From NCBI GenBank assembly GCA_015233495.1, contig JADFXQ010000013.1, positions 1 through 38,702 of the forward strand: 38,702 nucleotides of DNA, written 5' to 3'. Numbering within the stretch: the first letter of the stretch is position 1; each line of letters starts with the position of its first letter. Made by a program: the position numbers and the translations under genes. Of this stretch, positions 6,889-38,702 are shown one piece after another. The stretch comes from Candidatus Omnitrophota bacterium. Lineage in GTDB: Bacteria; Omnitrophota; Gorgyraeia; Zapsychrales; Zapsychraceae. A model generated the notes under the pieces. The model saw only the letters and a list, made by a program, of their open reading frames with translations, was not told where the DNA came from and did not search any database.

Positions 6889-7154
6889 TTATTAATAATA
6901 CTCAATATGCCCGGGCAAACCGGCTCGGCCAAAACTTCCGTGATGTTTCGATGGCCGCGGCCAACCCGCATGATTTGAGGCGATGTCTTCCCTAATAAAA
7001 GGCTGACCGCTATTGCGTGGGCCCGGATCTTTTTTAATTTTGCCGAATCCGGCGATTCGGCCGCGGGCACAACAATCTTTGCCGACCGGGAATCCGCCTT
7101 GACCCCCGCCAGCATTTCTGAAAAAGCCCGAATTCGCAGGGCGCCCACCGGCGA
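6855..7154 (-). repeat. Truncated, internally deleted repeat of the 17.8-19.1 kb module
   Basis: SSPVGALRIRAFSEMLAGVK matches SSPVGVPQIRAFSEMSAAVK. Then about 126 codons are missing, in frame, between the two copies of GCATCCGGCG seen in the parent, and a second in-frame deletion follows LAEPV. The last part reaches the copy of NKSPP, where a missing C shifts the frame into the stop at 6855. It is a decaying duplicate that ends the giant ORF. Confidence 0.85.
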
Positions 7155-13100: not shown

Positions 13101-16100
13101 GGCCGCGTAATCACCCATATCGCAATAGACGGATTCCAACGACAACATGAGATTAGGATCATTGGGACGCTGCTGTTGTTCTGTTTGAACCAATATTAAC
13201 TTTTCGCTAATGGACCCCGTCAGCCGCATCTGTGTTTCATGTCCGGCCGTTGCACAAGCCTTATCCGGCTCCTTCGACGTTGATCCGCCTTGGTGGTTAT
13301 TCTGTTGAATGTTCTTGCGCGCCGGACTGGATGCGGCGCGTCCCCGTATTATCGGCGAGGACGCCCTGGGCAATTGGATAATGAACGATGTGCCGCATTT
13401 ATGCCGGGTATCGACGAGAATTTCCCCGCCGAGTCCCTGGATGATCCGTTGCGCCACGTCTGTGCCGAGGCCATGGCCGTCCTGGGATGTGGTAAATCCG
13501 GCGGTAAAAAATTCCGGCAGCATTTCCGCGGCACCCGGCGCTTTCGGGATCAGCCGCATATATTCCAACGCGATCCCCATCCCATTGTCGGAAATCATGA
13601 CGTGCACTTGTTTTGCGTCGGCCGCGGTAAACAATACGACTTTTTTGATTTTGGTCGCGCCGATAAACGCGTGCTTAAACGCGTTTAAAACCAGATTGTA
13701 AAACACCCGGAGCAACTGGACTCTGATTGCCATGACGAACGGTTGGGCCTCGGAATAAATTTCTACGATCTCGACAGTATGATCCCGCATACTTACCACC
13801 TGCGCCGCCTGGCTTAACAGTTGATTGATATCAATCGCTTCGGTTCGGATCAACCCGGACCGCAAGTCGGCGCCCGGCAGAATCGATCCGAAATACTGCA
13901 TGACCGCTTGAATATACCGCGCCGCCGCATAAGCTTGCGGGGCTTGCCGCATGAGCCGGCCCGACGTGGCCGTAAAATGCATCAGCATTTCTTCCACCGA
14001 TCCCAAGGCCATTTCCCAGACAGACAATGGGCGTTGGGTTTCACTGCCGCGGTTTCGTCCATACCGCGCCCCAAACAATATCGCGGCGGGTGACACCGGG
14101 TTGAACGGCTCCAGGATATCATTGTTGTATTTTAATTTTAAATAATCCGCGATCCGATCAACCACTCTGATAACCGCCTGGCCGCCTAATGTATCTCCGT
14201 AATATTCCGATTTTTCAATCTCCCCCTTCACACAACTCAACCAATTCCGAACATCATGCGTGACCCCGCTCCACTCCTTCTGCCACACATCCGCCTCATC
14301 CGCATCCGCCGGCGAGCTCGTCAGAGAATCCCTTGACACGTGCTCATCGCTGGTCGTCCACATATCGCTGCGGCCCCGCCGCCCCCATCCCGACGCCACC
14401 GAGCTGCTACCTCCGGATGTCTGCCTGCTTCGTCCTAAGACACGATCACAGTCAACACTGTATCGATAAGGGGGGATGAAACAAAATTCTCCGAAGGTCA
14501 CTGCGGCTGGATCGGGACTCCCTGACCTGACCTCAACTAACTTAAACCTGATCCCGCCCGTATCCGGGACCGGCCGCAATTGCGCCCACTTTAGGCCGTT
14601 ATTATGCCACCCTCGTCTGAGCGCTAACAGATCGCCGTTGGGAAGCGCGCCCAATTCTCCGTCATAAACAATCCCGGAATCATGAACCACGCGAACCGCG
14701 GCCTGCCCCATCTGCCGGCTCAAGGCTTGTAATTCCTGCATCAAAACGTTTATCTTATTCATCCAATCTTTAATTTCTACCAAGCGCGGGACATCGAAAG
14801 CGGACGCTAATAAATAGCGTTGTTCTCCGCCTTTGGGCTTGCGGAACAATATGCCTAAAGCAACTTGTCTTTGCATATCGTTTCTTAAAGGGAAAAATGC
14901 ATCCAACAATTTTCGATATCGCGTAAATGTCATAAAATCATACCGCGCCAATTCCAACAGCCGCACGACGACCTCGTCCTGACCTTGTTCCATGCAACGA
15001 ACCAACATCTCCTGAAAATTCTCGCAATGACCCGCCGGCGGCAAAGGGACCGCAGTGCGCATCCGCTGACGCGCCGCAGCCAAAACCGATGATAAAAGCG
15101 CCAGCATAGCGGGTTGGTTTTCCGGAAAAACAAAATTATTGCCCCTTAAACCTTCCACCGCTGACAGGTCCGATCGAGCGGGAACGAAAATCCTCCCCGG
15201 GTTCCCCGGCTTGACCGCTCCGGGTAACGGCAGTCCTTCCATATGGGAAAATTCACAACGATAATCAGCCTGCATCGACAAACCTGTTTCATATCCATTG
15301 GCCAAAGCAGCGACATAGGAACCGGGAAATTCGTCCGCGAACCGCTCCCGCTTCACGTTGAGCGAAGACAGCGGCGAAGCAGCAGAACGCCGGTCTTCCG
15401 AAGGCGATAGCGCTCTTTGGAATTCAGCTAAAATGGCCCCATGCATATCCCGCGCAACAACGCCCTGACTGACGAGATTGAGTTCCTCGTTGACTTTTCG
15501 ATACATAAAATAAAAACTTTCGCAGACGTCAATTGGAGAATAGCTGTGGATTATCGGAAAAGCCCAATCCTGTCTTCCGGAATAGGTTTGTCCCGGGGTT
15601 TCTCGGGAAGGAAATACACGATAGAAATGTTCTTCCGAACCGATTGCATCAGACTGAGACATCTCTTCATCATCGTATAAATGCTGTATCAAGCTGGAAG
15701 CATTGTGTTCCGCTGGCAATGTTTGCTCGGAATCACGGGATTGCAAGGCAAGCCCTGCCGGTCGTGACACCGGGCTTGCAGATCGGGGATTGCCGGTCAA
15801 CTTCTCGAGCAGAGCCCGGGACCGGGTCTGCAGGTCCTCATCCGGTCCCTCCAAAACTTTTTGCAAACACGTAACCGCCTCATCCCGCAGCGTATTAACA
15901 TCAACGCCTTTTGGGGGGCAGGTGGCTCGCCGCATGAGAAGGACATTTCCTAAAAGCCACCAGGCTGCCGTAAGCGGCTCCTCGAATTGATCGACGTGCG
16001 CGCGCAAATGATATTCCGCGCTCCTCAATAAAGATTCTTCCGCGGCCGGATCTTGTATGGATAAATGAAACTCCAGCCTTCCTAAAATCAGGTGGATCCC

Positions 16101-19100
16101 GGTTTTCATGTGTTCGGACTCCGCCAACCAAGAGGCCATCTCATAAAGATTGCGCAGGCAATATAAATATCCCGGTCCGACGGACAATTGATTCCGTCGC
16201 TGCATCGCCACTTCGGCCAGACATTTCGTTAAACAATAAAAATATTCAAAATCCGCGCCGCTCTGCCGCAAAATGTGCGCCAGGTCTGTGTCTGTTTCCA
16301 CGCCATAACGATCCTGAAGTTCGCGGACCAGCGCCGAAAAATGCCGCTGATTGAACGCGCTCACAATGTCCGTGAACGGGTCAATCAATCCCAAATCCTG
16401 CGCGGCCCGGTTGAAATATTCCCGCGCTTCCGTCGCGCGTCCGCAATACCAATGCGCCAGCCCCAATTGGATATTAAAATCACCCGGCGCCTCCACATCT
16501 CTCTCGTTGCGCAAAAATATATTGCGGGCCGCCGCGAGATGCTCGTACGCCGCTTCGCGTTCACTCGCCGCTGAACCATTGTGGCTATCCCGTCGGGATT
16601 CCCGTAAAATGCGCGCCTTCGCCATAAAATAATGCGCAAACCCTTGAAAAATGTCTTCCTCCGGGCTTTCTGCAAAGTCCAACGTGAGTCTCGCCCATTG
16701 ATCAGCGGCTTGCCAATCACCTCTCTTTAAATAAACCGCGGCTTCCGCTAAATCAAAAATCATGTTTGTTAATTGGTCCTGACCACCACATGCCAACACT
16801 CTGCCCCGGCCGAAATAATGAATCAGATGTTCCGGCAATAAACCACTGGCCTCAAATGCCACAGCCAGCGCCGCGTCCAGCATGATCCCGGCAAGATCCG
16901 CGTCGGTAAATTCGAATGCCGGAATAATGGTAAAAATTATTTGTTGTTCCGAGTGAGAAATTTCGACGGCGCGCACCTGAAACATTGAGAATCCTTCGCT
17001 GGCCGCAGCCTTGAACTGTAATTGAAATATCGTGACCCATAAGCCCTCGTCGGCGCAAACAAAGACCATCGACCTTAAAATATCAGCTAAAGCGGGTAAA
17101 CCCATCCCTTCTATTTGGCAGGCCCACGCATCTTGGCACTTTCTCATTCCCGGCGATGGCGGAATACCATTCCCGTGCAGCGCAACCGCCACTTTCAATT
17201 GGAGAATCTCATCCGGGTCTAACCGTCGATTAGCAATAATCAGCGGCTGGCGATTGTCCGCCGGGCTGGATGCGCCGCGCGGGAACACATTTAAAATAAT
17301 GGGCGAGGCCGCGGCTTTGTTTATGGCCGTTGCTAGATCGACAGCGCGGAACTTGGCAATCCTCGTCGGATACCGTTCTTGCAAACGATCTAAATTCGAA
17401 TATCCGTCCTGATTATGCAAATCATGCGCTTCCCGAGATCTCAACACCGCTGCCGCAATCCGCGATCCTGCCGACGAGGCCCGGACTGTTTCGAGCGTCC
17501 CATGCCGCAATCCGGTTTCGATCGGACTGCCAGACGAAAGACTTGATATAAATAAACCAACGGGCCCGCCTCGCTGTGTGGACCTGGGTGTCCGGCCGCT
17601 GATGTCGGACCATTGAGAAACGCGCCTCAAGAGACCTCCTCCAAGTTGACATGACAAAAAGGCGCTTTGCGCGGGGCCGGCGCGATAAGGCAAGCCCGTT
17701 GGTTTATTGTTAATCTTGTAGGGGCGCCCCTCGTGGGCGCCCGTAGTCGCCGCGTTTTGAATCGGCGAGGAGACCGCGTCCAAAACTGCGCGCCTGGCAT
17801 TCGGGCCATCCGCGCTGGGGATGATCTTGATGCTGCGCGGAATTTCTAACGGCTTGGGAACAGCGCCGAGCTTACTTAAATAATGCTCTTCATAAATCCG
17901 GGGCGCGGCTGATCGTATTTGGGTCTTATATGTATTCCTCCTCCCTGATCGGGACAATTTGATCAATCGATCTTTCAATCGCCTCCGGGCCAAATAATGC
18001 GGGTCTACGCTTTCAATATACTTTAATTCTTGTTGCTCCTGGATCACCAGCATTTGTTCATCATACCCCAAGGTCTGCACGCATCCCGATTCCATCAAAT
18101 CCTCGTCGGATTTAAAAGACATCACCCGCGCCAATAATGCCCCGTATTCAAGATCAACTTCGTCTAAGATCCCCGCTCGCATATCTCTTTGATGCCAAAT
18201 TTCATGGTGAATTGTTTCCCCTTCCCCCGGAGTCAAATATTTCGGGCATTGAGCGGTTGCCAGCAATCTTTGCTTGATTTCAAAACCTGCGTTGGGTTCG
18301 GGAGTGACAATCATCAGGCGGGAATTTTGAGCAGATGCCATGCCGTATTCAGCGCTTGGGCCCGGCGGGCTTTTGTTAAAAATACTCAAAATTCCCGTGC
18401 CCGGAAGAACAACATCATTTTCAATAATCAATCTCCACGGCGTGTCCACGCATGCCTTATAAGCGTTGTTCGCCGCGGCAATATCCCCGAATAATAATCC
18501 GTCCGGCCAAACCGGCTCGGCCAAAACTTCCGCGATGTCCCGGTGGCCGCGGCCGATCCGGGTGATTTGGGGCGATGTCTTCCCTAATAAACGGCTGACC
18601 GCCATAGCGTTGGCCCGGATTTTTTCCAATTTTGCCGCATCCGGCGCGATCACCAATCCGCCATCCGTCATGATCAAAATTCCGCGCGGCGTCTCAAACA
18701 CCCGCATATGGCTGATCAATTGGTCCCCCACCTTTAATCCGCCGTCCATCCCAGCCCGCATCAATGTCCCCGTCGCGGTCGTGCCTTTTAAAATCAAAAT
18801 CGGTTCTGCCGGCCGCTCGGCCGCATATTTGATACCGAGCGATAAAGCCGCGGTCTCATCCTCGACGTCCAATATTTCCGGCTGCGCCGCCTGCAAGGCC
18901 AACAACTGCTGTGCCTCGATCATTCCTTCGATGACGTGACGCTTCCCAGTCAAAACCGCGCGGACGCGCTGACCCATTTCCGCGATCAGCATATTCAAAG
19001 CTTCTAAAGCATCCGGCGATTCGGCTGCCGGCACAACAATCGTAACCAACCGGGAATCCGCCTTGACCGCCGCGGACATTTCTGAAAAAGCGCGAATCTG

Positions 19101-22100
19101 CGGGACGCCCACCGGCGAGGACGCCAGGACTATATCTTTTGCCAAACACGAATCAAAAGCATCTTTGACGCTTCGACGACTTCTATTTAATTTGACATTA
19201 ACTCCGAAAACGGGTATATATTGTATTGAAGACGCAAAACTACGAAAGGGCGGTGTTTTCTTATGCTGACAAATTACATTACTTCTTCCCCGGCCATTTG
19301 CGGCGGCGACCCTGTATTTAAAGGCACGCGCATTCCGATCTATTTGGTGCTCGATCTGATCGAAGGCGGGCTGTCGATCCTGGAAATCAAAAAGCGTTAC
19401 TATCCGCAATTGTCGGAAAAGGCCATCCGAGCCGCGCTCCACTACGCAAGCGATATGATCAGAACTGCGGAATTTGTCCCCTTTCATACCGTCGAGGCTT
19501 AGCATGGAATTCATCCTCGATGAAAACATGCCGGTCGAGTTGATTTCCTGGCTTAATGAACAAGGCCATAAAGCAACCCGTGTCGTTCTGGGGTCGGACG
19601 ACGAAGCCGTCGCCGCTTTTGTTAAAGAGCGCAAAAATGTTCTTCTGACTCTGGACCGCCACTTCGCGAATACATTGAGATTCCCGCCCCAAAATTTCCC
19701 CGGTATCGTGCGACTAAAAATCCATCCCCCGTATATCCAAGACATCATATCTTCTCTCGATAAATTATTCCGTTCGTTCTCGCAACAGGAACAATTCAAA
19801 GGCAAGCTCCTCATTGTGGAAAAAGACGGGATTTTTCTCAAAGAATTTTGAGCGGAGCGAAGTGACGACGAAGTACCGCGCCCGGTCTGCGCGACCGACC
19901 ACCGCCGCAACAACCCCGTGTGTTTGGCCTGCATCCGCTGCACCAACTGCTCCAAAATCGCAGTCTCGCCCGGGTTCAAAATAACCGGCGAGGACGCCCT
20001 GGGCAATTGGATAATGAACGATGTGCCGCATTTATGCCGGGTATCGACGAGAATTTTCCCGCCGTGTTTCTGGATGATCCGATGCGCCACGTCTGTGCCG
20101 AGGCCCTGACCGTCCTGGCATGTGGTAAATCCGGCGGTAAAAAATTCCGGCAGCATTTCCGCGGCGCCCGGCGCTTTCGGCATAAGCCGCATATGTTCCA
20201 ACGCAATCCCCATCCCATTATCGGAAATCATGATGTGCACTTGTTTTGCGTCGGCCGCGGTAAACAATACGACTTTTTTGGCTTTGGTCGCGCCGGTAAA
20301 CGCGTGCTTAAACGCGTTTAAAACCAGATTGTAAAACACCCGGCGCAACTGGACTCGGATTGCCATGACTAATGGTTGGGCCTCGGAATATATTTCTACA
20401 ATCTCGACAGTATGATCCCGCATACTGACCACCTGCGCCACTTGGCTTAACAGTTGATTGATATCAACCGCTATCCGATCAACCAAGCCGAGAATCGCCT
20501 GGCCGCTTGGCGTTTTCCCGCGATCTTCCTGTCTTTCAATCCGTCCATTCAAACTCGTTAACCAACTCAGAATATCATGCTTCATCCCACGCCACTCTTC
20601 CTGCCACATATCCTTCTCATCCGCTTCTACCGGCGAGGAAGTATGCTTGTCGTCAAAATTTTTCAGTTGGCATGATTCGTTGCGGGGGTTCTTATGAATG
20701 GTCCGACTCCAGTCAATTTGTCCGTCGTTCAACTCGACAGGCAAAATAGAAACCGACATGGCCCGTTCGCTTGGCGAAAACAGCCCCAAGTCATCACGCC
20801 AGGCCATCAGGATCAGACGCATGACCTCCCGGTGGGCGGGGGCAATCATCAACGGATTGGAGCAGCAATATCGTGACCGATAGGACGGGAGATTGCCGGT
20901 TTGGTCTTTTAAAAAATAATCGAAAACCGTCAGCAATAATTTATACCGCGCGGTCGCCGGATAGCTGACCGGATAAGCTAACATGGCCGCGACGCGGTCC
21001 GCGGCCGGCCGGCTGTTTTGGATCAGGCGGATTTCTTTAATAATAGCCGGACATTGCCCGGCGATTTTTCCCAAGGGTATCCCTTTAACAGCGTAGAAGA
21101 CAAAAATGACTGTTTTGACATATTCTATGGACCCTTCATCCAATCCCGTCAAATCCAAATCCTGAAACAGCTTGGTTAAACCGCAAACGGTTTCCGCCGT
21201 GAATCGATGTTGAGTAGCTGCGCCCATCAGATCATTCAAGGCATACGCGATAAAGTCATCGCCCAGAGATATGATCAAAAGATTGATCAACTGTTGTAAC
21301 ATCCGGGATTCATAGGCCTTCAGCAACATGGGAATCAATATCTCCGGATCAATGTCGCGGCTGATTCCGTTAGTTCTGCCCAACCGCAACCTGCCAAACA
21401 CCTGGGCCCGCGGATCAGGGACTGTCAGCAATGCCGCGGCCGCGTCGCGCGCCTCGTCGGAATTTTCGCTGTGCTGAGCGCACCAGATCAGACTCTCGAT
21501 CACTTGCGCTTCACGCGACCCGGCCCGCGCCAAAGCAATGGCCGCGTGCACGCCCCTGCCCTTTGTGTCAAACGATAATATTTCCCGCAAACGGTCCTCA
21601 CCCGCTTTCGCCGCGACCAGACATTCGACAGCCGCCAGCCGCCGGGCCCGGTCAGGACTTCCCAAATCGGTCAATACTGTTTCCGTGTCTGCGCCGATTA
21701 AACCGGATAAACGATTCGCAAATCCGTCTTCCGTCTCAATCACCCAACGGATAAATCGCGGCTGGGTCGTCATGATTTTCATATCCTGATGTCTCAAATC
21801 ATCAACCGCAATCGGTTCCGGCAGCCGATCACCTGTCCAGGTGATTCGCCAACCATTATTCTGATTCCCCAAAGCATAACCATACACATCCCGGCCGCTA
21901 TGCCGATAGCGGATCATCATCGGAGATTTTATGACGCGCTGGACGGTCATATCCCGAAAGGGCAGCGCGCCAGGATTTACGACAATGAACACTTTATTGT
22001 TATGCAGCAATCGCGCGTCTAAATAGGTTTCGCCGATTCCGGGGCCCAGCAAGGTAAGAACCGGAACAAATCCGGTTTCATTGATCGCGGTCAAAAGGCC

Positions 22101-25100
22101 CAGATGGATCCCCTTGTCCGTTCCCCACAACAACCAATCTCCGACGGACGGCATGATCCCTTGGCCATAAACCAACGGTCCGATCAATTCCAGGACACCG
22201 CCTTTCGCCAACGCGATCCGCCGCATCAAGCCCTCCCCCCCAGCGTCCGCGCCGGGCCGCTTCGGTTCAACCGGCGAGCTGGACGGGGGGCGCGGTGGAT
22301 TTTGGTCCCTGGTTGAATCTGCCGTATCGTCCGGGAACCGGGAGCGCAGAATCACGATGACGGCCTCGGATTTTTCCGGGACGCTCAACTGATATTGTCG
22401 GGCAATGTCCTTCAGCAACGCGATATGTTCCGACGGAGCCAAGTCCCAGGACACCATCATGGAAATACAGCGATCGATCAATGTCTCGCATTTTTGCCGA
22501 TCCCGTCCGGACAACCCTATCCGCGCCTCCAATATTTTGTGAACAATCGCGACGCGAAACGCCTTGCGGTCGTTTTCCGAGCTCTCCGCAATCCCGGCTA
22601 ATGATATCCATTCGCTTGATCCTTTGAGCCGGATCATCATGGCCATATTCTGACAATACGCTTCCAACGCTTCCGGCGGCAAATTCGGATAATCCAATTC
22701 CAACGCGATCCCAAAGGGATGAACACTCGCGGCCAGCCGCAGAAGTTGGCTGACATCAAATAGGGCGGGGTTTTCTACTCCCGCCTCGACAATCGCCACA
22801 GCCTGCACCTTGTCCCAAAACAAAAGGGGCTCACTGCCATGCGGGATATAACCTCCCGGCGTCCTCACCCCCATCACAAACGCGTCGCCCTTCAGGGAAA
22901 TCCTCTGAGGATTCAAGACAAAGTTTTTTATTCCGGTTTCGGAAGCCGTTTCCCCAGGAGCGGTCTCCCGATCAATCTGTCGCCGCAACACTCCGATGCC
23001 GGGCCAACGCCACTGTCGTAATCGCGCCGACAACCCGCCGAGAAAAACGCCGAATTTAATGATTTGCCGGGAAAACATGGCAAGCAGACCAAGCACAATC
23101 GCGAACATTGCCGCATAGATCCAATTGTCGTTAGACGAATCCGGCGGGATCGTCGGAGGCGGATTAATGTGGGTTGGCGGAGTCACCGGTTCGTGATTCG
23201 GCGCTGAGGCCGAACGCGGATGAGACTGCGCGGCAGACGTGGTTTTTCGCGACACGCTGTGACTCGGCCGCGCAATGATACGCACCCTTGCCTGATGTCC
23301 CATGGCTGGCAAACGCAATTTCATGCCAATGCGCAAATGGTTCGGATTTTTTAGATGATTGATTCTCTGAATTTTCCGAACCGCGCCCCGCGGCCCCCAC
23401 AAACTCGCTTCGGTCACCGATTGACCCGTCGCCTTCAAATAATTCCGGGAAATTTCTCCCAAGGTGTCTTCCGCCGGGACGCGCTCATTCCATTGCTCAA
23501 CAACCGCGAGACAGCGGCCTTGCTCATCCACCCTGAAATGATGGCCAAACACCGGCGAAAGCGACGTCAAAAATAAGAGTAATCCCAAAACCAATAACCG
23601 AATAAATGGTGTCAGATCTCGATATCTATATGAGGTATAATAAGTTATGAATATTTTCCAAATTCTCGCTATCCTTTTTCCCGCCATAATTAAAAACAAA
23701 AGAACACGCTCGACGAGTGATTTTGCAAAAATAGCCATAACATTATATCTGGCAATGCTTTGTTGAGATCTGACACCAATTATACGTATTATGATAGGCG
23801 AGGCGGCATTGTTACGATCAAAATGACCTTCTTCATCGGTTATTATCTCCGGGAAGCGTTCCGCTACGGATTTGCAGGCTAAGACAATTTCGGCTTCGAT
23901 CCGGCCGGGCTGGCCTATGGCGGCACTGCGCCAAACGATTTCAATGCCGCGATCGTCGTAACATCTCATTCCGGTTCCCCAATCTCGGCCGTCCCACGGG
24001 GCGCAGACAACAACATAACCGGCATATTCTTTTCCCAAATAAATCGAATTTTTCCGGCAAATCACATATCCTGTCGCATGGACCCGGACCGGCTCAATCA
24101 AGAGAGTCATTTTCGCCGAAGTGTCTTCTTTTTCGGCGAGAAGGACCTCGTGATAATAGACCCGAAATCCCTGGCGTTCGCCTTCCTGATAAGACCGGAT
24201 GTCCACGTTTTCTCCGACAAATAACTGGCCGATATTATGATATGTTCCGTATTGAAAGCATCCATTGCTTTGCACCGGCCGGCTCACTTGAGCTTTGAGC
24301 CGGGTCGTCTTGCCTGTCGCTGGCGCCTTGGCTGGAAAAATATTTTTACCGCGGGCCATAAAAAAATTATTTTTTGCCGGGTCATAATAAACCAGCATCC
24401 GGCCCGCGTCTTCCTCCGGCCGCGACCGGATCAAAACTTGGGTTTGCGAATTTTGACCCACATCATAAATCCACGTTCCCCGTCGCATCGCGCCGGTATC
24501 ATCCGTTGTGACGATTTGCAAATAATTTGTATATGCGCCAGCCGCGCCATCCCAGCGCCCAATTTCCGTATCTTTGAAATAAGCGCGAACCGCGCCTTCG
24601 CATTCCGGACAAAAACGGATTGTCCGGCCGGCCAAGGCCGCGGCAATAAAAATCTGCTGACCTTGCCATACGCCATATCCATTTGCGTCCGCGGTCACGC
24701 GGCGATATCGAGGCTCCGGACGCTGCGCGGGCATCGGTCTCACGCCGTAATATTTCGCTTTCACATCTTCCCGGTCGAGCAAGGCCGTCAACGCCGCCGC
24801 GGAAAAATAATATCTCCCAAAGGTATATAACCAACCGCAGCGCGAAACTCCGTCAACCAAAATCGGATGCTGGCGCATCAGACGGGTCAGCAATCGCACG
24901 ACTTTGCAATAACCCGTTCCCAGCACCATTAATCCGCAACGTACCATGGCCTCTTTCGCGCTGATGCTGGTTCCAAATCGGGCGAGGACCTGTTGCGCCA
25001 TCTTTTGTTCCAAATAGATCGGCAGGACAACCGCCCGATCCAACATCCTCATTCCCTGCGCACTCTTTTCATAAGGAGCACCTTTATGTTTTGGAAATAA

Positions 25101-28100
25101 AAGTTTTTGCGCATAATGCCGTTGCCGGCCGAGTAGTTCGGAGATTTCAATGGACGAATATTGCGGTTTTGCTAAAGCTTCGGCTAAAGAATATAAAACC
25201 TCGGAATCGGTTTTCGAAATTCTCTGTTGATCATCACTCGCCACAATCCCATTCTCCGCCAGACGGATCACAAAAGCGGGATCAACGCCTAATCGGGCCG
25301 CGACCTCTTGCGGCTCATAGAAACGGATAGGCTCAACCGCCGGCGGCAACGGCAAAGCAGACTCGACGCTGACCGCCGCTTTACGGATCAGCCGACTCTT
25401 GAGAAAATTACTAAAACGTGTTGTGCCGGATTCCAAAGCAGCGGGTGGCGCCGTTCTGCTAAATATAATGCTTATGTAATCGAACGCCAAATCCGCACTG
25501 CGAGGAGCGTGACAATTATCCGCAAGTGCTTCAACAAATTCCGCCATATCATCCTGCCCGGGCAAAGGAACGCCGAGAAATTCCACCCTCCCTTGCTTAT
25601 AGAGCGCGACGATTTCCCGCAAAGCCGCGCCCATTTCTCCGCGCTCGTTCATCCTCTCACCCCGACGATAAATCGAAGTCAAATCAGGATAGCTGATAAT
25701 AATTTTCCCGTCATCAGCCAGCCAATATTTCGCGCCGCTGTCTGTCGTAAAATAAACAGAAACCGCCGGCGATGCGGAAATGTGTTCGGTTAAAATATGC
25801 CGGATTGGATCATATTCCCGGCGATGCGCGATTCTGCGCGACACAACGTCTCGGCAACCGTTTTCGATCCGGACTGTTTCGGCAAGCGCGACTTCTAAAC
25901 TTCCCGCGGCCGTAATCAAACCATGGCGGTTCAGGCGAATCGCTGAATATTTTCTGATATGTTCCCGCACAGCACGGACCAATTCGTCGCTGCCCGGATG
26001 CAAATAAGGAACAACCGGTATATCCCGGAAGTGTTTGCCGATCAGCGCCAGCGCTGTCGCGATCGGCGCGTGCGTGTGCACAACTGCGTTGACATCCTCG
26101 CGGGTGAGATAAATGATCCGGTGAAAGGACGCTTCGATACTCGATTTCCAATTCCCTAAACCGCGTACCGGCCGGCCGGTTTGCAAATCAATGCCCACAT
26201 ATTCTTCCGGAGACATAACAGCAAACGCTTTTCCCGTAGCTTTGATGAGCATGATCCTACGGTCTTCGGGTAAAACACTCGTGTTCCCGCTGGAATGCTT
26301 TACTAAACCGGCAGCGGCAATCCGACGGCCAACGCTCTGCAATTGCAACCGTAACGCCGCGATTTCCGCTTCGTCATATTCCAGATCAATGGGTTCCTCT
26401 GCTGTCTCCAATACGGATTTTCCTTGAGGAACAGGATGGTATAGCCCCAAAATCCTTTGACATTGTTGTAAATCAAAAGGCTCCACCTGCCCGCCCACAG
26501 CCAATGTTGCCGCGATCTTTACGGCTGTGTCCTCGACCATGCGAATCCGCATCCAGGCCTGGGCAAAATCCTTGCCGCGGCTGAAAATCCCGTATTGGCG
26601 CGTCATCACCACCGTATGGCGAGACAACAAATGGGCCAACATTTTCGGAGTTTCATCGACGTCATTCGTCACAATATAAGACATCGCGCCACACTCATTT
26701 AAATGGGAAACATGGTCCGGATTAAAGGAAACAATCTGCTGATTATTTTCGCGTAAAAAGCGGGCCACCGGCGGGTCAGCTTGGGCGATACATATTTGAG
26801 GAAATCGCGACTGCAGGATGGAAAACAAATCATCAACCCACTCCGGCCCAGCCCGGATCCGCGTCGCAGACAATTCCGGCGAGCTCAGTTCATCGCCGGT
26901 CACAACCAGAATCCACTGACTCCCCGGCAAACCAGCCCGGCCCAAAAACCCAGAGCAAGAATTCGCCGGTGAAGCTGAAGCTGCTATCGACGCGCCAACT
27001 TCTATCTCGTAACTAATAGGACCATCGTAGGGGCGCCCCTCGTGGGCGCCCGCTTTCATCGGAGTAAAGTGTGTGTCCCTTAATTCTCTGGATGAGCTCC
27101 GTAAATTTGCCGCGCGATAATGACCTTGACTTTTTGGCGAGCCCATAGTATTGTTAAAAACAGAAAGAGGTTTATAAGTATGGTCAAAATTATAACCGGT
27201 ATTTATGAACAAGGCATTATCCGTCCTTTGCGCCGGCTCCCATTTTTCAATCGGCAAAAGGTTGAATTGCGGATTGAAATCCCCGTTGAAACCGCGCGTT
27301 CCACCAAGGCCATCATTCATGTCAACCAACGCGCCGGCAAAATCATTTCCGAATCTCCCCATTTGAGCTCCCTGGAAAGTTAAACCATTTTCAAATAACG
27401 ACGCGCCAAGTTCTATCTGATCACTCGTAGAACCGTCGTAGGGGCGCCCCTGGTGGGCGCCCGGCGTCGTTGCGCGCTCTGATGACGGGCGCCCACGAGG
27501 GGCGCCCCTACGACTGTAATCTGATATGACCGCGGAAGAAGCAGCTGGAAAACCCTTACTTGGTGAAGCGGCGAGAAAATCCGAATCTTTTAATACGGAT
27601 TTTGTCGCAAAACCGATATAATACCCCTTGGGTAAAGAAGGCAGATCCACCAAATCTTTTCCTTGGCCCGGCGCGCGGTCCACGGCCAAATAGAGTTCGA
27701 TCTTGCTATCGGAGATTGAAACATTTCCCACATAGGTATAAAGAAATTTTGTCCCGAGCCCTTCGATCGTTAGAGCAACGGAAACCGGCATATAAAAGAA
27801 ATCGCCCCAATCTTCATTCCCCCGCTTATGAAATAATACTTTTTTCTCTTTCAACCCCGTCTCCAAACGCGCCGCTGATGCCTTGAGTTCATTTCCTATA
27901 AAATATTGATACACATAACTGCCGCGCAATGCCTCGACAACCGCATTATCCACCTTGGTTTCATCTTCCTTCGCCCGATTTCCCGCTGGCTCGTCCGTCC
28001 AGGGCATATCATTGTCGTCCCTATCGCTATCATATTCTTGTTTGGACATCTGCATCGTCTGTGCCTCGACAACTTGGCGCGCCCTTAATGATTGTTGATG

Positions 28101-31100
28101 TCGTCGACGCTGTGTCCATTGCGCCATACGCATTTGCCAGTATCCAAAGAGCCCAAACCTACCTGCTGATATGATAAAATCGGAAAAAGATATCAACCCT
28201 ATTGCTAAAACAATGATCCAGAACAACCACGGAAACGTGACACAGAAAGCCAAACAGATCACAAACATCGCACCCCACACGGCAAATCGAATGACACGCG
28301 CGAATATAACGATCCCTCGGAAAACAGCCGGGTTGACGCGGTTTTGCTGTTTCCAGAAAACATCGCTGCAATATCCAATCAACCGCGCCAACCCGTTGCG
28401 CGGCATTCGCTGCGGCGCATTGTCATCGCTAACCGGCGAAGAAGAATAAATTGAGATTTGACGCCATTTAATCGGGCTGGACACCTCCCCCTCGGGACCG
28501 CCGGACGCGTCTTGTGGACCCGACATTGCGATAACTTCTTGTATGCCCCACACCTCTCCCTTAACTCGGACTTTCGACACGAGGCCGAGAATAACGTCTA
28601 AAGGCAAACCGGTCGACTGCGCCAGCCACACATGCGGCGCCGATTCTTGGTGTCCCTGATAATAATCAAAAGCCGCTTGGAACAAAATGTCGATTTCGGA
28701 GGGACAAAATTCCATTTCGGTCGTCAAGATGAGCGTTTCCCCTTTTTCCCGACGTTGCGTATTCATGGCTTTAATGAGCCAACTGATTTTGTTGACTGTC
28801 AAATCACATCCTAAAATCTTACGCAGACTCTCGTAAGACGGATAACCATAAGGATATGCTCTTTTAAATCTTGCATAGCCGCGTATGACACGCGTCGGCA
28901 CAATATCATTTTCATTCGCGACAGAAAAAAGTTCGACGCTAACATAACTGCCCGGGATATATTCGATGGCCACCCATCGATTGTCCGGCGACAAAGCAGC
29001 CGGCTCCAACTGGGTCATCAGACCATAGAAATTTTCAACTTCCGGGACACCGGCATACCGAACCGCAACATCTCCGGTGATTGTCCTTAAAGCATTTAAT
29101 TGTTGAATCCCTTCGTCGATAGGGAAGACCGCATTCCTGATCTCGTCCGCTTTTCCCGTCCACGATTCATCCGGATCAGGCGCGGCCAAAATCTGTTCCA
29201 GTCTTGAGCGTTCTTCCGCCGCGGCCGGATCATCCGCAGTTGTCTCCCGCGCCGAAACCGCGCCTGCACGGGATCCTGTGGATGAAGTGCCGCACTTTAT
29301 ATCTAAGTAATGCTGAATCGTTCTAAATGGAAATCCCGGTCCCGCCGGACTGGAACCAGCTCGATCCGGCAAAGCGGCGGTCGGGACCATCTGCGACTTC
29401 GGTGAAACTTGGCGCAACGGAATGGCCGTGGCCATATCCTGGGATTTGAGTTCTCCCTGCTCATCAATGGACAACACCCGCGTCACGAACATCCGAAACA
29501 ACGGATCGCGAAACATAAACGTTCGATATAATTTCCACGCGTCGTCAAACGCGCTGGTATCGCGGCAATTTACCCTCACCTTTTCATACCCCCGGAATTC
29601 AACGAAATCCGCTGACCGCGCCAGGGTTTGGGCCTGGTCCGCAGTCATGACCGTATCCATGATCGGCAAAGTCAATCCGGATTCACGCATAATCCGCCGG
29701 ACATCTCCGGAATACCCTATCACCGAACTGCGCTCCGCGAACGCTATCGCCGGAGATAACAAAGAAGGCAGAAGCGCGTAGAGCAGGGCCCAGGCACCGG
29801 CCAAATGTTCAGGAATGTTCGCGGCCTGTACAGGAAGGCTAACCTCCCATTCCGGCCGTTGAACGTCCGGAAAAAATCCCCGCATCGATGCTCCGCGGGA
29901 CGGACGGTCCGGACAACCAACGGTAATCAACGGCACAGACGGGTCAAGATCATAGCGGACATCCGCGCGCAAACTGTAAAAAAGCAATTTGTTGTAAGCG
30001 CCGCCATTTACTAAGGAAAAGGAATAGATGATTTTAAAAACATCGGCCGCGACTTTTCGCAAAATATCTCTCAACGCATCGTCGGCAGATAAAAATGGCG
30101 TTTTCACCGCGGCAAAATTCTTATAAGAATATCTCGTCCATTCACTGCCTCGTCCCGGGACCGGAAACCGATATTGATGAACAGCATACGGCCGATCCAA
30201 CGCCATAGTCAAAACCATGCCCTGCGGGGTACGCCGAACCGATGTATCCAAGGCATAACGCACGGACCGGTCTGTATGCGCGGCAAACGCGTCCGTGAAT
30301 TCGCCGAAAGGCAAAAACGCGTCCCAACCCGCGGCCGGCGAGGAATACAACGGATCAGCCGGGCTGGACGCGACGGGGAATCCGGCGGCTTTCAAATATT
30401 TTCTGAGGATCGCGAAATTTTCCTCATATTTCCACATTTCAGATTCGTTGCGCGGCTGGCGCAAATCCAAATGGAGCATCACATCGAATGGGTCCATTTC
30501 GAAAGAGCGATAAAATTCCAGGATCTCGTAAACTTTCGCGGTCAAGGCCTGACCAAAATATCCTCGATGGTTTAACCGGGGACCTAACAAAGCCATTGCC
30601 ATTTGCAGATCAACGCGGTCGATATTCTTAAACCGGACCACGCCGTTTTTCTTGCCCCAAAATGGAGAAATCACCATCACATACGCTCGCGGAAATATAG
30701 TTTTGATCTCCTCCAGACCTTGCCGGGAAGCTGTCTCGAAAACCGGGACCTTCCCCGAATCGATGCTCCGGATCAACTCGCTTTTACGCGTAGCGTGACT
30801 ATTCCGGATCAGGCAAAGTTCTTGTTGCCGGTCTAACGCGGCAAATGTATCCGCGTCAACAAATTCGCGTTGTCCCGATTCCCATTCATCATCAAACCGC
30901 ATCGGCCGCGTGGTCAACACGGGAACATACACATACCATTGCGGATAATACGCCAACAAAGCGCTAACGACCGCGGATTTCCCGCTCGACATTGATCCCA
31001 GAAACACCAACACCCGAGTATTGGGGAATACTTCCTCCCGATATTCCGTCCAATAATCGGCATTCCCCGCCAGCGGACTGGCCGCCTCTGACGCGGACAT

Positions 31101-34100
31101 TGAGATCTGCCGCCATTCAATCGGGCTGGAGCTTTCGGACGGGCCATCCTGTTCCGTATGTGGATTTGCATGCCCATTCTGCAAATAGATATGGATCGCT
31201 TCCAAATCATAGACAATCGCCTGGCGAGCGTCTTCTGCCCGGGCGTTTATACCCCGACCTGCGTCCCCGAAATTTTCTTCCGAGACAATCGTGGGAATAT
31301 AACCCACTCCGGCCAAGGCATTCCCCAAATCATGCGTGAAATTTAAAAGCAGATCTTGCGGATCAACATCATCTTTGACTCGAGAATTCAAAGGCAGCCG
31401 CACTGTGAATTCAGAAAAACGATGCAACACGCTATTGACAGCAACGGTTCCGCCCAAGGCCCGCGCAAATATCTGCACAATATAAAGACCTTTGCCCGTG
31501 CGTTTAACGCCTTCCCTCACCTTGACCTCCGGCACAATAAAACGGCGCTCGAAAATTTTCGTCCAATACCGTTTTGCAATCCCGCACCCGTTATCACGCA
31601 CCAAAATCGTGATCCAGCCGGGCGAATCATTTTTAACGCTGACATAAATCTGGCCTCCATAGGAAGTATATTTAATCGCATTGGTGATTAAATTTTCCAA
31701 AATCCCGCGCAACAGCTCGGACGCGGTACGCAGGCGCGCCGATCCGTCGGAATCGATAAACAACTTTTTTTCCTGGGCCGACAAAGACGGCCGATGTTTG
31801 GCGCGAATGGCTTTTATCATTTTCTCAATATCCACGTCTTCCGGCTTTAATCCCCGGCCGCTTTTCACATTCATGACTTTTGTGATAAATCGTCTTAAAC
31901 GCACGCCGATATCCGCCGCGATCAATATGCTGTTTTCAATCTGCGGAATAAATTCCTTTTTATCATCCGCAGCCAACTTCGACTGATCGATGTTTCGGAA
32001 TGCCTGACGCAGCACAGTTAATTGATGTAAACAATCATCCATCAATCGCGCCGCTCCAATAATCTGGGAATTCGCGTATGCCTCAAACCACGCCCCCCGC
32101 GCCGCGTTCATCGAAACCAGCATCTCGATAGGATAAATAAAAACCCCGGCGAGCAAATATCCCTCGCTCAAAATCCGCCAAACCAAAAACATATTCGAAT
32201 CCATAATCACCGGATAAATCCCAGACATCAACCCCGCCGCCGCGACAAACCCTATTCCCACCCCCAGCAGACGGCAAAAATCAAATCCTTCCTTAAATTT
32301 TATCTCCATTGCCAAATGGCCTTGCGGCGTGTTCTGCGGATAAATGGCCGCCAAGATCGCTCTCTTCAGCCGTTGCCCATCCAAAGTATTGACCAAAGCT
32401 GTCCAGTCCATTTTTTCAAAAAGAATTTTCGATCCGACCCTCTGCAATTTTATCGCAGTTTCAATGACGCTCTTTTGATCAGCGCTTAACTCCTCGTTAT
32501 GTCGAAGTTGCTCATAAATCGTAAAGATATCCGGGCTGTTGTTTAACCACGCGACGGCTTCTTTGGCCGAAGATAATGCCGGCATAGATGTTTTTGCATC
32601 CTGGCAGATTTTTTGGATCAACTTTTGAACTTTAGCTAAATCATTTTCAAATTCACTCGCCCGAAATTCCATGGTTTCTGCCAAATGAATATTTCCGCTC
32701 AAAATATCCGCTACTTGAAACTCCGCCAATTTCGACCGCTTGATCAAAGCCTCGGCCAACCGGCCCAGAGTGTGCGCCGCCAGATACGGCCAGAACACAA
32801 TTTTTAAAACCAAGTTCAACCACCCCGCCCGCCCAGAAAAGAAATTAAAAACCACCGGATCCCGCCCCGCCGCCGGCGATGCGGCGTTTCTCGTCGAGGC
32901 GATCCCTTCCGCCGGCGAGGAGCAAAGCAAGTCTCCCACGACACAATGACCTTGACATGCCGTCAAAGACGCTGTAAACTTTTTATGAAAGAGAGGTAAA
33001 CCGCCATGAAACCGGAAATTCAAAAATCCTTGGATCGGGTCAACAAAATCCGCAGACTGATGTCCAAAGCCAGTTCGCCTTTTCGGGGAATGACCAAACA
33101 ACAAATGATCGATGAAATCCGCAAGACCCGAGAAAGACTTTGGAAGGAAGAAAAACTTGCTGTGCATCCTCGATAGCAATGAATACATCTTCGGGCTCGG
33201 CGCTGTCCGTGAGCCCATTTGCGAAAAACTCATAGAAGAAATCATCAAGTCTTCCGGTAAAATAAGTGTTCGTTTACCAAGATTCATTGTCAAAGAAGTG
33301 CGCCATAATCTCACTCCGGAAGCGTTTAAAGAATTCATCATCCTCATTAACAGCTTAACTGTTGTCGACGAAGATTCCGAGGTGCCGTTTGATCTCGGAG
33401 TAAGATTCGAATCCTTAGGATTAAAGATGGCCGATGCATTCATCGCCTCATATGCCGCGCCGGTCACCCGAATGTCCGCCGGACTGCTGACGCTTGCCCC
33501 GGCCGGGCTGGAATGCGTGTGACCTTGCGGGCCATGCGTATGACCGTCAGCGCCGTGGGTATGTTCACCCGCTTTAATTTCCTGCGAAGCCCGGTCATAG
33601 ATTCGACGTAAAGCATCACGCGTTTTCCCTTTGCCCAGCGCCTTCTTAATATCAGCGATACTGTCATTGCGCAACGCGCCTTGCTGCATGGCCTGGGCCA
33701 CCGCATTGATCAGTCCTTCAAAATCTTTATCTTTCTCCCCGGATTTCAAATAGCGGATCACTGCCTGAATCGTGACGTTCTTCAAATCATGCTTTTCGCT
33801 CTCCCCGATCTCCGTATCCAAATCCTTATTGCTTTCCTTGACCAAAACCTCGGACAATTCATCCAGCATCTCTCCCATGTCTTTTGTGCTGTCGTTAATC
33901 GCCTCCCTAATCTTATCAGCCTCGTCTCCCGCGGCCGCCGCGATTTCGTCTGCACGCTCGGCAGTCAAGGCATCGTTGTAAACCATCCGGTCACACCAAG
34001 CAAATACCGACGACAGCATCATTCCGGACACCAGCCCGCCGATGGGCGAAGAGCTGACCGCGGGTGAGGCGGTGGTTTCGTTCTGATTTTCAGACAATAA

Positions 34101-37100
34101 TTGCTTCAAATCCGCGAGGGTTAAAATTAAATCATTTTCCGAAAACAATCGCTCAAGAGTTTGCAATCCAAATTGCGGGTCTAACCACACACCAACATAG
34201 ATGTCTCGATATTTATATAAAACGAAACTGATCGCTCCATACAAAGCAAAGCCGATCGTACCGACCGTAATGACTTCGTTTGCCGTCTGCGGACGGGCAT
34301 AAGGCCGCAGTTTTTCCAGACGGCTTATAAAATTTGCTACATTGTCATATCCCACTTCCGCACTGAATTCGTTGACTTCCCGTAAGGTAGGTTTAAAATT
34401 CCTTAATTTTTTGTTCTGTTTCTCAGCATATTTAACAAGCAAAGATTCCGAATCGGAAATGATGTCCGCCAATTCCGACGGATTCATGGCAACGGCAGCC
34501 GTTTGCGCAACGGACGGAACCGTATTTCCCGCGCCTGGGAGCGTTGCCGCGGGCGCGGGAGGCGTGACAATCGTCCCCGGGGTCAATGGCGCGGCCGGCA
34601 GTGTGACCACCGGGTCCGGAGTCAACGGCGCCGGCGGGGTCTGTTGTTTTGCGGCCACGTTGAGCCAATACGTTGTCAATCCGTCTTTTGAAATCACCCC
34701 AAACTCGGTCCCTTCGATCTGAAGCGCTTGTTGTTTGATTTCCAACAGTTTGCGCCGGACATTTTCCAGAGACGGAAGCTCTTTTAAAAGTTCTGCCGCA
34801 GCGGCCGCGACGCTTTCCTCATCGCTCACTGCCTTGCGCATATGACCGTACAATATCTTCGTCTCGCCATCGCCCATTTCTCCGTCGCGCGTCACCCCTA
34901 TCTTGATTGTGTCCCCGGCTTGCTCCCAGCTCAAGCGGATCATGCCCGCGTCCGCGCCCGTATTGTGCGTTTTCGCCCAACGGATAAATTCGCTCAACCA
35001 AAGATCAGCGATGTCCCGCGCCGGTTCACCGCGGCCGGCAAACATCGGCATAATTTGTTGATCGACCGCCGTGGTCAATGCCGTATCTTGACGGCCTTTC
35101 GCAAGATTGTGATTCGCCTTCGCGCTCCCGGGGGCCGTCATCGCGACCGCACTCATCGGTTGAAACGGCGCCATGACCTGACGGTCCGCGTCAGTCAAAG
35201 CTTCCGCCGCGCCGGCATACGGCGCAGTCAAAATCCGCGTCAATTCAGCTTCGCTCAAACCTTGTGTCTCGTCGATCATCCGGTCGATTGCGGCCATCAG
35301 CTGGGCGAACGACACGGCCGCCATTCCCTGGGACGCGTCTACGCTTAAGCGGCTCGCTTCCTGATTCTTCGGCGTGATTTTCAGCCCCAACCCGCCATCT
35401 GATTTCAAATACACATAAATCGTGCCCCCGTCCAATGCCTCGCCCTGGCTGTGCGCCCGAATGATTTCATCCGCCAGAGGCTGGGCCACTGTCTGCTCGA
35501 TCAACCGCCGCATATTCCGCGCCCCGTGCGCCGGGTCAAATCCACAGCGCACCAGCGGATCATAAATACTCACCGCGGCCCGCGTCCCGTCGGGCAGACT
35601 GTCCACCTGCAGACTGTATCCGCGTTCGCCCAACCGTTCCTCACCGATTCGCCGCTCCAGCATGATCCGCGCCACTTCCCGAATCTGCTCCTCAGTCAAC
35701 GGCACAAACGGCACAATCCGGTCAAACCGATCCACAAAATACGCCTCGTATTTTTCCTTCAACCCTTTGGTCGCTGCCGCGCTGATCACGTCATACATCT
35801 GATTCAATATCGCTTGCACCGCATCCGGACTTGTCACCAGATCCAAATCCTGCTGTAACCGAACGCGCGTGCCCGGATTCTGCTCCCGGCTGATCGATCG
35901 CCGCAACGCTTCAATGGCCTGCTCCCGGTTCACAATTTTCAACAAATTCCCCAGCCGGTCGGTCTCGTCCTTGACCGACTCCATCCCGATGTTCGACGTG
36001 CAAATCATCAACGTATTGTTGAATCGCACCTCGCCCTCATTGTCCGACATCACGCCTTCTTCAAACAACGCGCCCAATGTCTGCACCACTTCCGGATGAG
36101 CTTTTTCAATCTCGTCGAACAAAATCACCTGATAAGGTTTGCGGCGCACCGCGCCGGTCAACGCCCCGGGCTTGTCTGACCCGATATATCCCGGCGGCGC
36201 GGAATGGAATTTCGTCTCCGCCCCAGGGAACCGGTATTCCTCCATATCCAATTCGAGGATCGCTTTTTCCGAACCAAATAAAAATTCCGCCGACGCCTTG
36301 GCCAACGCGGTTTTTCCCACGCCCGGCGGGCCGACGAATATGAACACACCCATCGGCCGTTTCGGGTCCGTTAGCCCGGCCCGCGCCCGCCGCACCGCCT
36401 GGGCCACTGCCCGAATCGCCTCATCCTGCCCGATCACCCGTTTGCCCAAATGTTCTTCCATGCCCATCAACCGCTTTGCGTCATCCAATGTCAACTGCGC
36501 CAAATCAATCCCGGTCTTTCTCGCCACTTGACTACGCACCATGTCTTCCGTGATATGCAATCGGCCGTTCATCACTAGCCGGTTTTGCATCAATCCCGCG
36601 TGATCCAGCACCAACCGCGCAATCCGGTTATATGTCCCCAATTCAGTTTTCCCTTCAATCCCGCGTTTCTTGCAGTCCAAATAACTTGCGGCTTCCAGCA
36701 TCAGCTTGCTCACCAATGACCGTTTCGACCGTTCGTTCCGGTCCTGCTCGTCGATATACCAGGTTATTGTCTCTTCGAGCAGTTGCACGGCTTTATCCGG
36801 CAAGGTCCGTTCATAAATGAATCGCTCCGACAATTTCACGGCCGCCTCCAAAACTGCGTCCGGGATTTCAACGTCATAACGTTCCTGCAATGGCCCCCGC
36901 CGCGCTTTTAGAATATCCATGGCCTCGTCCGCCGAAGGTTCCTCGATCTTCACCTGCCGCAACCGCCGCGTCAGCGCGTCGTCAAAACTGATGTATTTGT
37001 CAAATTCTTTGTAGGTCGTGGCCCCGATTAGACACACCTCACCGTTCGTCATATATTCCTTTAAAACATCTCCGGCCGACGGGTCCAATGCTCCGGCCTG

Positions 37101-37526: not shown

Positions 37527-37589
37527 CGGAGAAGAACTGATCAGTTTGGATTGGTCCAGTGACCCGCGGCTCTATTCCAATTGACAAAC

Positions 37590-37618
37590 TTGACTTCAAA
37601 GAGGAAATGTATTAGGCT
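37590..37618 (+). promoter_or_regulatory. Candidate sigma70-like promoter of the DUF104-mazF operon
   Basis: TTGACT and a weak TAGGCT are separated by 17 bp, upstream of the DUF104 ribosome-binding site. The -10 element matches the consensus poorly. The position fits the other embedded operons. The reverse complement of the neighbouring DNA holds the two stop codons (TGA 37596, TAG 37572) that split the giant frame. Confidence 0.45.
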
Positions 37619-38702
37619 TGCTAGTAGAGAGGTGATTCCTATGACTAAACTCTTGCCTGCCGTGTTCGAACGCGGCATATTCCGCCCGATACGGCCTGTA
37701 AAATTGCCCGAACACAAACGGGTTTTTTTGACCGTCAATATCTTCAATGACGACATCCCCGCCCTGTTGATCGGCAAACTTGCGGAAAAGTCCGGTAGTT
37801 TCAAATATTTGAGCGATCCCAGAGAAGACATTTATTCCATCAACGACGGAGAAGCGATCTGATAATATGTCAATTCGGCGCGGCGATATTGTTCTTGTCC
37901 CTTTCCCGTTTACCGACTTAACCAGCGTTAAAGTTCGTCCCGCCCTCATCGTATCCGATGATCCCCAGAACCAAGACGTGATCATTGCTTTTATCTCATC
38001 CGTCGTTCCCGCTAAACTCAAAAAAACGGAATATTTATTGAATGTCAACGATCCGGATTTCTTCACCACCGGTCTCAAAACCGTCTCCGTTATCAAAATG
38101 AATAAACTTCTGACAATATCCTCCGCCTTGATATTACGACGGCTCGGCCGTGTCAATCCCGAGTTGCAACAAGAGCTCAACAAACTCCTTAAATTAGCCC
38201 TCGGCCTATAAGCGGTAATTTCCCCGGCCTTGATATTTTTTGCCAAATGGCCGCCTAAAGCATCCACCGGAGAACTTGACTCTTCTTGGGCGGCTAAATT
38301 TTCCTCGATGATCGCGGCCTCATCTGACGCTGTTCCGGGATGCGAAATACTCTCTAAAATTTCATTCGCCGCCAAGGTGTCGTGTTGCTCGCTAAGCCCG
38401 GCCAACAATCCGGAATCTTCCGCCCATGCCCCCAACTCCTGCGCCAAATTCTGTCCATCCTCATTCACTGCCGATTCGACGATTTCGCGCACCACGGTTT
38501 CGCTGTCTTGAGTAAACACATCCTGTTTCAGCCCCTTGACCAATTCGTCCATATACACTTCTTCAAACGCCCCGCGATCCAGCCGGTCTTCCGCCATCAG
38601 CCGTTTTAAGACCTTGTCCAAAATATGCTGATGACTCGGGTCTTTCGCAAACCCGTCTTCCTGCTCAATATCCTCGCCGTCCACTTCGCTCTTCACTTCT
38701 TT
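37596..38702 (-). CDS. N-terminal-side segment of the giant modular gene, interrupted by a toxin-antitoxin insertion
   Basis: The frame is open to the window edge (codons KEVKSEV precede the listed GTG start), so this is the 3' part of a longer ORF. The native-looking portion, about 38212-38702, encodes an acidic, probably alpha-helical stretch rich in E, D, L and A with no recognisable family. It ends in the junction motif EESSSPVDALGG. Downstream of that, translation is only the antisense of the MazF and DUF104 genes, and it stops at TGA 37596-37598. The frame is the same as that of the giant ORF starting at 37526, which suggests the two were one gene before the toxin-antitoxin pair landed. 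The coding status of the 38212-38702 part is likely; the rest is probably not native protein. Confidence 0.7.
   Translation of the reverse strand, partial: KEVKSEVDGEDIEQEDGFAKDPSHQHILDKVLKRLMAEDRLDRGAFEEVYMDELVKGLKQDVFTQDSETVVREIVESAVNEDGQNLAQELGAWAEDSGLLAGLSEQHDTLAANEILESISHPGTASDEAAIIEENLAAQEESSSPVDALGGHLAKNIKAGEITAYRPRANLRSLLSSCCNSGLTRPSRRNIKAEDIVRSLFILITETVLRPVVKKSGSLTFNKYSVFLSLAGTTDEIKAMITSWFWGSSDTMRAGRTLTLVKSVNGKGTRTISPRRIDILSDRFSVVDGINVFSGIAQIFETTGLFRKFADQQGGDVVIEDIDGQKNPFVFGQFYRPYRAEYAAFEHGRQEFSHRNHLSTSKPNTFPL
37641..37862 (+). CDS. DUF104 (AF2212-like) antitoxin
   Basis: This 73-residue protein begins MTKLLPAVFERGIFRPI, the characteristic start of the DUF104/AF2212 family of small beta-rich antitoxins (family knowledge). 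The listed upstream TTG start is less likely, because a GAGAGGTG ribosome-binding site lies just before the ATG at 37641. The gene ends 4 bases before a MazF/PemK-type toxin start, forming a two-gene toxin-antitoxin operon. The protein should bind and neutralise the partner ribonuclease and may repress its own promoter (inferred). It is embedded opposite the giant minus-strand gene. A paralogous lone copy lies at 27180-27383. Confidence 0.88.
   Translation: MTKLLPAVFERGIFRPIRPVKLPEHKRVFLTVNIFNDDIPALLIGKLAEKSGSFKYLSDPREDIYSINDGEAI
37867..38211 (+). CDS. MazF/PemK-type endoribonuclease toxin
   Basis: The 114-residue product starts MSIRRGDIVLVPFPFTDLTS and continues with KVRPALIVSDD, the hallmark N-terminal strands of the MazF/PemK/CcdB-like fold. 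Length is typical for the family. Known members cleave mRNA at short sequences, and their activity is blocked by the cognate antitoxin. It follows the DUF104 antitoxin by 4 nt in one operon. DUF104 is a less common partner for MazF than AbrB-type antitoxins, but such pairs occur. The gene lies antisense to the giant gene just downstream of an SSSPV junction, and its cassette breaks the giant frame. It looks intact. Confidence 0.92.
   Translation: MSIRRGDIVLVPFPFTDLTSVKVRPALIVSDDPQNQDVIIAFISSVVPAKLKKTEYLLNVNDPDFFTTGLKTVSVIKMNKLLTISSALILRRLGRVNPELQQELNKLLKLALGL

Follow-up and report, generated by a model that had tools for sequence, protein, structure and literature searches.

The window, a stretch of 38,702 bp that makes up the whole of contig C16 in a draft genome of 2.1 Mb (G000), carries on its minus strand a giant ORF and, upstream of it, a second ORF in the same frame, with an adjacent pair of small antitoxin and toxin genes on the plus strand between the native parts of the two (cassette F; Table 1). 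The native part of the upstream ORF runs from about position 38276 to the contig end and the rest of it is the complement of cassette F; its start is unseen because the window is all of the contig. The toxin gene product matches PF02452 with 57.8 bits (cut-off 23.1) over positions 1-108 of the 109 in the profile, and the gene order of the pair is the same in relatives. Judged from the two families, DUF104 and MazF would work as an addiction pair. PADLOC gave no match, and no second close mazF was found in G000.

On the minus strand the native sequence ends with SSSPVD at about 38276 and resumes with SSSPVDM at 37535. A sequence-only reading of this DNA had pointed out these edges, the shared frame of the two ORFs, and the DUF104-mazF pair and two in-frame stops lying between the native parts, all of which we confirmed: both edges lie on a perfect 13-bp repeat, both genes have profile matches and the two stops, TAG and TGA, were located. 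The two copies of the repeat, ATCCACCGGAGAA, are 741 bp apart, that is 3 x 247 or 247 codons. The repeat alone is no proof of a target-site duplication because matches of at least 13 bp are not rare among the SSP sites of the window (13 of 378 site pairs), and we gave it correspondingly less weight. These two stops alone break the frame, and both fall in a 106-bp leader that runs from the left SSP to where DUF104 starts; across DUF104 and mazF the giant frame contains none. It is the leader of the window copy, and not the TA genes, that breaks the giant frame. A frame of 10,615 aa, read as open across both parts, was set aside, as it ignores the two leader stops.

Table 1 Features of the window, with positions counted from its first letter.
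Feature	Position	Strand	Remarks
Giant ORF	6855..37526	-	10,223 codons, 30.7 kb; ClpB-like AAA at start; 26 SSP motifs
Upstream ORF, same frame as giant ORF	37596..38702	-	runs off contig end; at least 368 aa
Cassette F antitoxin gene, DUF104/AF2212-like	37641..37862	+	PF01954 1.2e-6, above Pfam curated cut-off
Cassette F toxin gene, MazF/PemK	37867..38211	+	PF02452 1.5e-15, above Pfam curated cut-off
Left 13-bp direct repeat	37521..37533	.	perfect copy; SPVD on minus strand
Right 13-bp direct repeat	38262..38274	.	perfect copy; SPVD on minus strand
In-frame TAG stop, cassette F leader	37572..37574	-	CTA on plus strand
In-frame TGA stop, cassette F leader	37596..37598	-	TCA on plus strand
Cassette A: DUF433 + DUF5615 (PIN-like)	19263..19851	+	PF04255 6.6e-19, PF18480 6.4e-15
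Cassette B: small partner gene + aspartyl protease	11164..11768	+	PF13650 3.5e-6
Cassette C: antitoxin-like gene + RelE-fold toxin	10249..10913	+	Foldseek top matches RelE, E 6e-5
Cassette D: orphan DUF104 gene	27180..27383	+	68-bp direct repeat either side, 26985-27052/27396-27463
Cassette E: small antitoxin-like gene + C-terminally altered PIN-like gene	33006..33522	+	PIN E=0.019, below cut-off

At least five further plus-strand cassettes lie antisense within the giant ORF, and the giant frame is open at each of them (Table 1, cassettes A to E). Cassettes A and B (19107-19996 and 11028-11851 with their ends) are alike at both ends (93% and 90%), including the SSP codons and a promoter-like left end, and carry different cargo. 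The RelE fold of the cassette C toxin, which has no Pfam match, comes from a single-sequence model with a pLDDT of 75, and cassette E is probably a decayed cassette. SSP codons are found within 450 bp on both sides of five of the six cassettes (permutation P=0.0006; P=0.002 when the end-sharing cassette B is left out; overall range 0.0006-0.004). The proposal in the sequence-only reading of a frame-preserving insertion at an SSP site thus gains support from this proximity, and also from the cassettes at unrelated sites in relatives described below. The SSP motif itself is in tenfold excess in the giant ORF (26 seen, 2.5 expected) and its codons are varied (TCCTCGCCG, TCCAGCCCG, AGCTCGCCG and others), which indicates a motif at the protein level, possibly a linker or a processing motif; a mobile repeat at the DNA level was rejected for the same reason. 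Across the stretches of G000 that were sampled, totalling about 1.2 Mb, SSP is near chance in ordinary ORFs (18 against 13.8 expected) and reaches 25 against 2.0 expected in the giant ORF of contig C15, so that the excess is mainly in giant ORFs. A single open frame of 13,134 aa takes up all 39.4 kb of contig C15 (L052, L070) and might be part of the same giant gene as that of C16; no recognisable nested TA gene or cassette was found in it.

Some further features of the giant-ORF region were observed alongside. In the PIN-like gene of cassette E (33157-33522), SSP-linker sequence in complement has apparently taken the place of the C terminus. An 86-bp palindromic dispersed repeat at 27432-27517 adjoins the orphan DUF104 gene and has partial copies at 941-1014, 4784-4829, 17718-17744 and 26985-27064, and a 500-bp internal duplication (93%) at 19986-20484 and 13353-13855 lies at the end of a HATPase module of the giant ORF.

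The same arrangement recurs in Omnitrophota that are related to the window genome at the family, order and class level; all genomes compared are draft MAGs. The MazF homologues nearest to that of the window are nested antisense in uninterrupted giant ORFs (G090, at least 4354 aa; G025, at least 6645 aa; G003, at least 8721 aa; G066, at least 4858 aa; G045, at least 12050 aa). A more distant homologue in G038 is also antisense-nested, in an ORF of at least 4551 aa. The giant frame is stop-free over about 1.4 kb round each relative's cassette and per 1-1.4 kb the other two antisense frames contain 13-51 stops; the G025 giant ORF itself terminates 151 bp upstream of its mazF. The flanks of the nested DUF104-mazF cassettes are non-homologous between genomes, and the insertions therefore look independent. 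The nested DUF104-mazF cassette of G090 (L108, 10000-10700, contig C11) has a duplicated flank of 23 aa, a direct duplication of about 69 bp. In a set of 80 MazF loci taken from named genomes, an antisense frame of more than 1,000 aa runs through mazF at six of eight Omnitrophota loci and at none of the 72 from other phyla (Fisher test, 9e-8). The nested antisense arrangement is thus well supported as recurrent at unrelated sites and, among the MazF homologues examined, restricted to Omnitrophota. The sequence-only reading had also proposed looking for an allele free of the cassette; none was present in the plasmids, the 92 relatives or the collection of genome contigs searched, the last two of which include no genome of the same genus.

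We then considered reading frames in a set of 34 TA genes that are nested. Across none of them does the giant frame meet a stop, and its relative phase is 0 or 2 in every case, phase 1 being absent. The codons TTA, CTA and TCA account for 0 of 258 Leu and Ser codons where the giant frame is in phase 0 and for 74 of 343 elsewhere (2.5e-20), and phase-2 stops for 0 of 1784 where the giant frame is in phase 2 and for 76 of 1492 where it is not (4e-27), contrasts that partly reflect the choice of cases since the 34 genes were found inside open ORFs. This shows that TA genes of this kind are not in general open on the antisense strand. The pN/pS of MazF ranges from 0.15 to 0.41 in its own frame against 0.27-0.66 in the giant frame, showing that MazF in nested copies is under protein-level constraint, stronger in its own frame than in the giant frame. 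When synonymous codons were permuted gene by gene, most of the P values were weak; the DUF104 row was computed from a start one base off.

Nesting extends to other TA families. Over 37 genomes, seven of 30 HicA loci and eight of 19 DUF433 loci are antisense-nested in an ORF that covers the fetched locus essentially from end to end, the others with few exceptions have short antisense frames only, and no HicA or DUF433 gene at these 30 and 19 loci is nested in a sense frame. HicB, DUF5615, PIN, MNT/HEPN and DUF2283 genes are nested likewise. When the antisense ORFs of eight giant ORFs were ranked by coding potential the top ones were mostly TA genes. With all tested families counted, nested TA genes were seen in at least twelve Omnitrophota genomes. 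The second DUF433 gene of G000 (L232, C23:185526-185693) lies antisense to an ORF that spans its full 3.2-kb locus and contains one SSP.

A promoter-like motif, TTGAC[ACT]-N17-TATATT, is present in the cassettes of three relatives, with a clear TATATT in G003, G066 and G045. The window cassette has a TTGACT box with a poor -10 region, and no consensus promoter match was found in the window. As regards the split, the sequence-only reading had it that the cassette itself divided the giant ORF, and this holds in so far as the cassette leader carries the stops; it does not extend to the TA genes, which are stop-free, and the giant frame is open in relatives. For these reasons the split is possibly secondary, the leader stops having been either gained after insertion or brought along with a TA part that was already adapted to nesting. 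The 10,223 codons downstream of the split contain no further stop, which leaves three options: a young break, a tolerated break or separate translation of the downstream part. No sigma-70-like promoter was seen on the minus strand between 37480 and 38702, which is a weak test, and it is plausible from the sequence that the downstream part lacks a ribosome-binding site and promoter of its own.

There is good support for a TA cassette having been inserted into a giant gene, and cassette F is probably one of a class of self-promoted TA cassettes that repeatedly enter Omnitrophota giant genes at or next to SSP linkers, in antisense orientation and with the giant frame left stop-free. According to this mechanism small TA cassettes would enter giant genes at, or close beside, Ser-Ser-Pro linker segments, with the TA genes on the opposite strand and the giant frame running through their complement without a stop. 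The cassettes would be expressed from their own promoter, and the insertion would be tolerated because the SSP segments are presumably linkers between domains. Since the loss of a giant-gene stretch would also remove the antitoxin, TA pairs may be retained as addiction modules, and by analogy with superintegron TA cassettes these modules may protect and stabilise a costly giant gene.

Cassette F might alternatively be a TA pair of the ordinary intergenic kind, placed between two genes independent of each other, and it would then be by coincidence that the frame is shared and that the edges read SSPVD. The two stops that part the ORFs, the fact that 13-bp matches among SSP sites are not rare and an Omnitrophota homologue in ordinary surroundings (G076/L130) agree with this, but the upstream ORF passes through cassette F in frame with stops in the leader only, the part of that ORF whose openness is undisputed contains five other cassettes, the frame is open in relatives, and at 59 of the 72 MazF loci from other phyla not one antisense frame is open across mazF. 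We hold such a coincidence to be very unlikely. It is likewise highly improbable that the giant frame is untranslated through the cassettes and its antisense openness a by-product of composition. Giant ORFs do have few annotated domains, as this would lead one to expect, but the unused antisense frames are full of stops at the same places, the two stop contrasts (0 versus 74 and 0 versus 76) argue against it, and published peptides map to a giant ORF of another Omnitrophota (PMC10066038).

If SSP-encoding DNA were a recombination site, TA pairs could travel in an integron-like manner; cassettes A and B, alike at both ends including the SSP codons and different in cargo, fit this, as do the direct repeats of 13-69 bp that flank cassettes F and D and the G090 cassette. 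The varied SSP codons point instead to a motif of the protein and not to a DNA site, and the likeness of A and B is explicable by segmental duplication, since other duplications exist in the giant ORF, so that we consider site-specific insertion unlikely. A strong rival is neutral tolerance, whereby TA pairs land anywhere, giant genes offer a large target with lax linkers, and a giant ORF survives only antisense, stop-free insertions, with no stabilising role for the pairs. This accounts for the antisense orientation and the SSP preference without invoking function, and ORFs of at least 1500 aa make up about 10% of the 1.2 Mb sampled from G000. It is harder to reconcile with the protein-level constraint kept by nested MazF copies and with the counts in G000, where both DUF433 genes, both DUF104 genes and the only close MazF are nested and three HicA genes are not, although the counts are low and the choice of the window was not random. 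Neutral tolerance could well be correct, even if we would stop short of calling it probable. The stronger form of our preferred reading, in which Omnitrophota giant genes are addiction-protected arrays with TA pairs on the opposite strand, selection on two strands for a stop-free frame, deletion penalised and SSP serving as standard docking points, is put forward tentatively, as a possibility.

At such loci one DNA stretch carries two coding layers, and on a large scale: one strand encodes TA genes and the giant frame passes unbroken along the opposite strand. Standard gene callers, we expect, probably miss nested TA genes, and the TA content of Omnitrophota may consequently be underestimated; some of the sequence in giant ORFs that lacks annotation may be TA genes in complement. 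Should the cassettes indeed guard against deletion, this would go some way towards accounting for the persistence of genes tens of kilobases long in bacteria whose genomes are small.

Cassette F resembles the known type II TA systems of DUF104/AF2212-like and PemK/MazF proteins in both families, in the antitoxin coming first, in the gap of a few bases and in a promoter-like leader. Those systems usually lie between genes, whereas cassette F lies antisense inside a giant protein gene. Giant ORFs are known from Omnitrophota, for example in V. archaeovorus LiM with 39,678 aa (PMC10066038), and the window ORF of 30.7 kb is like them in exceeding 20 kb and in having few annotated domains; the main text of that paper makes no mention of toxins or antisense genes, and a search of the open-licence literature turned up no published account of TA genes lying inside giant ORFs. 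In Vibrio superintegrons, TA cassettes with their own promoters build up in one long array, which they have been proposed to stabilise (PMC12548467, PMC3948777). The likeness to these superintegrons, as judged solely from repeats and SSP codons, goes with a clear difference in form, in that the Omnitrophota array is a single ORF and its cassettes are flanked by SSP codons.
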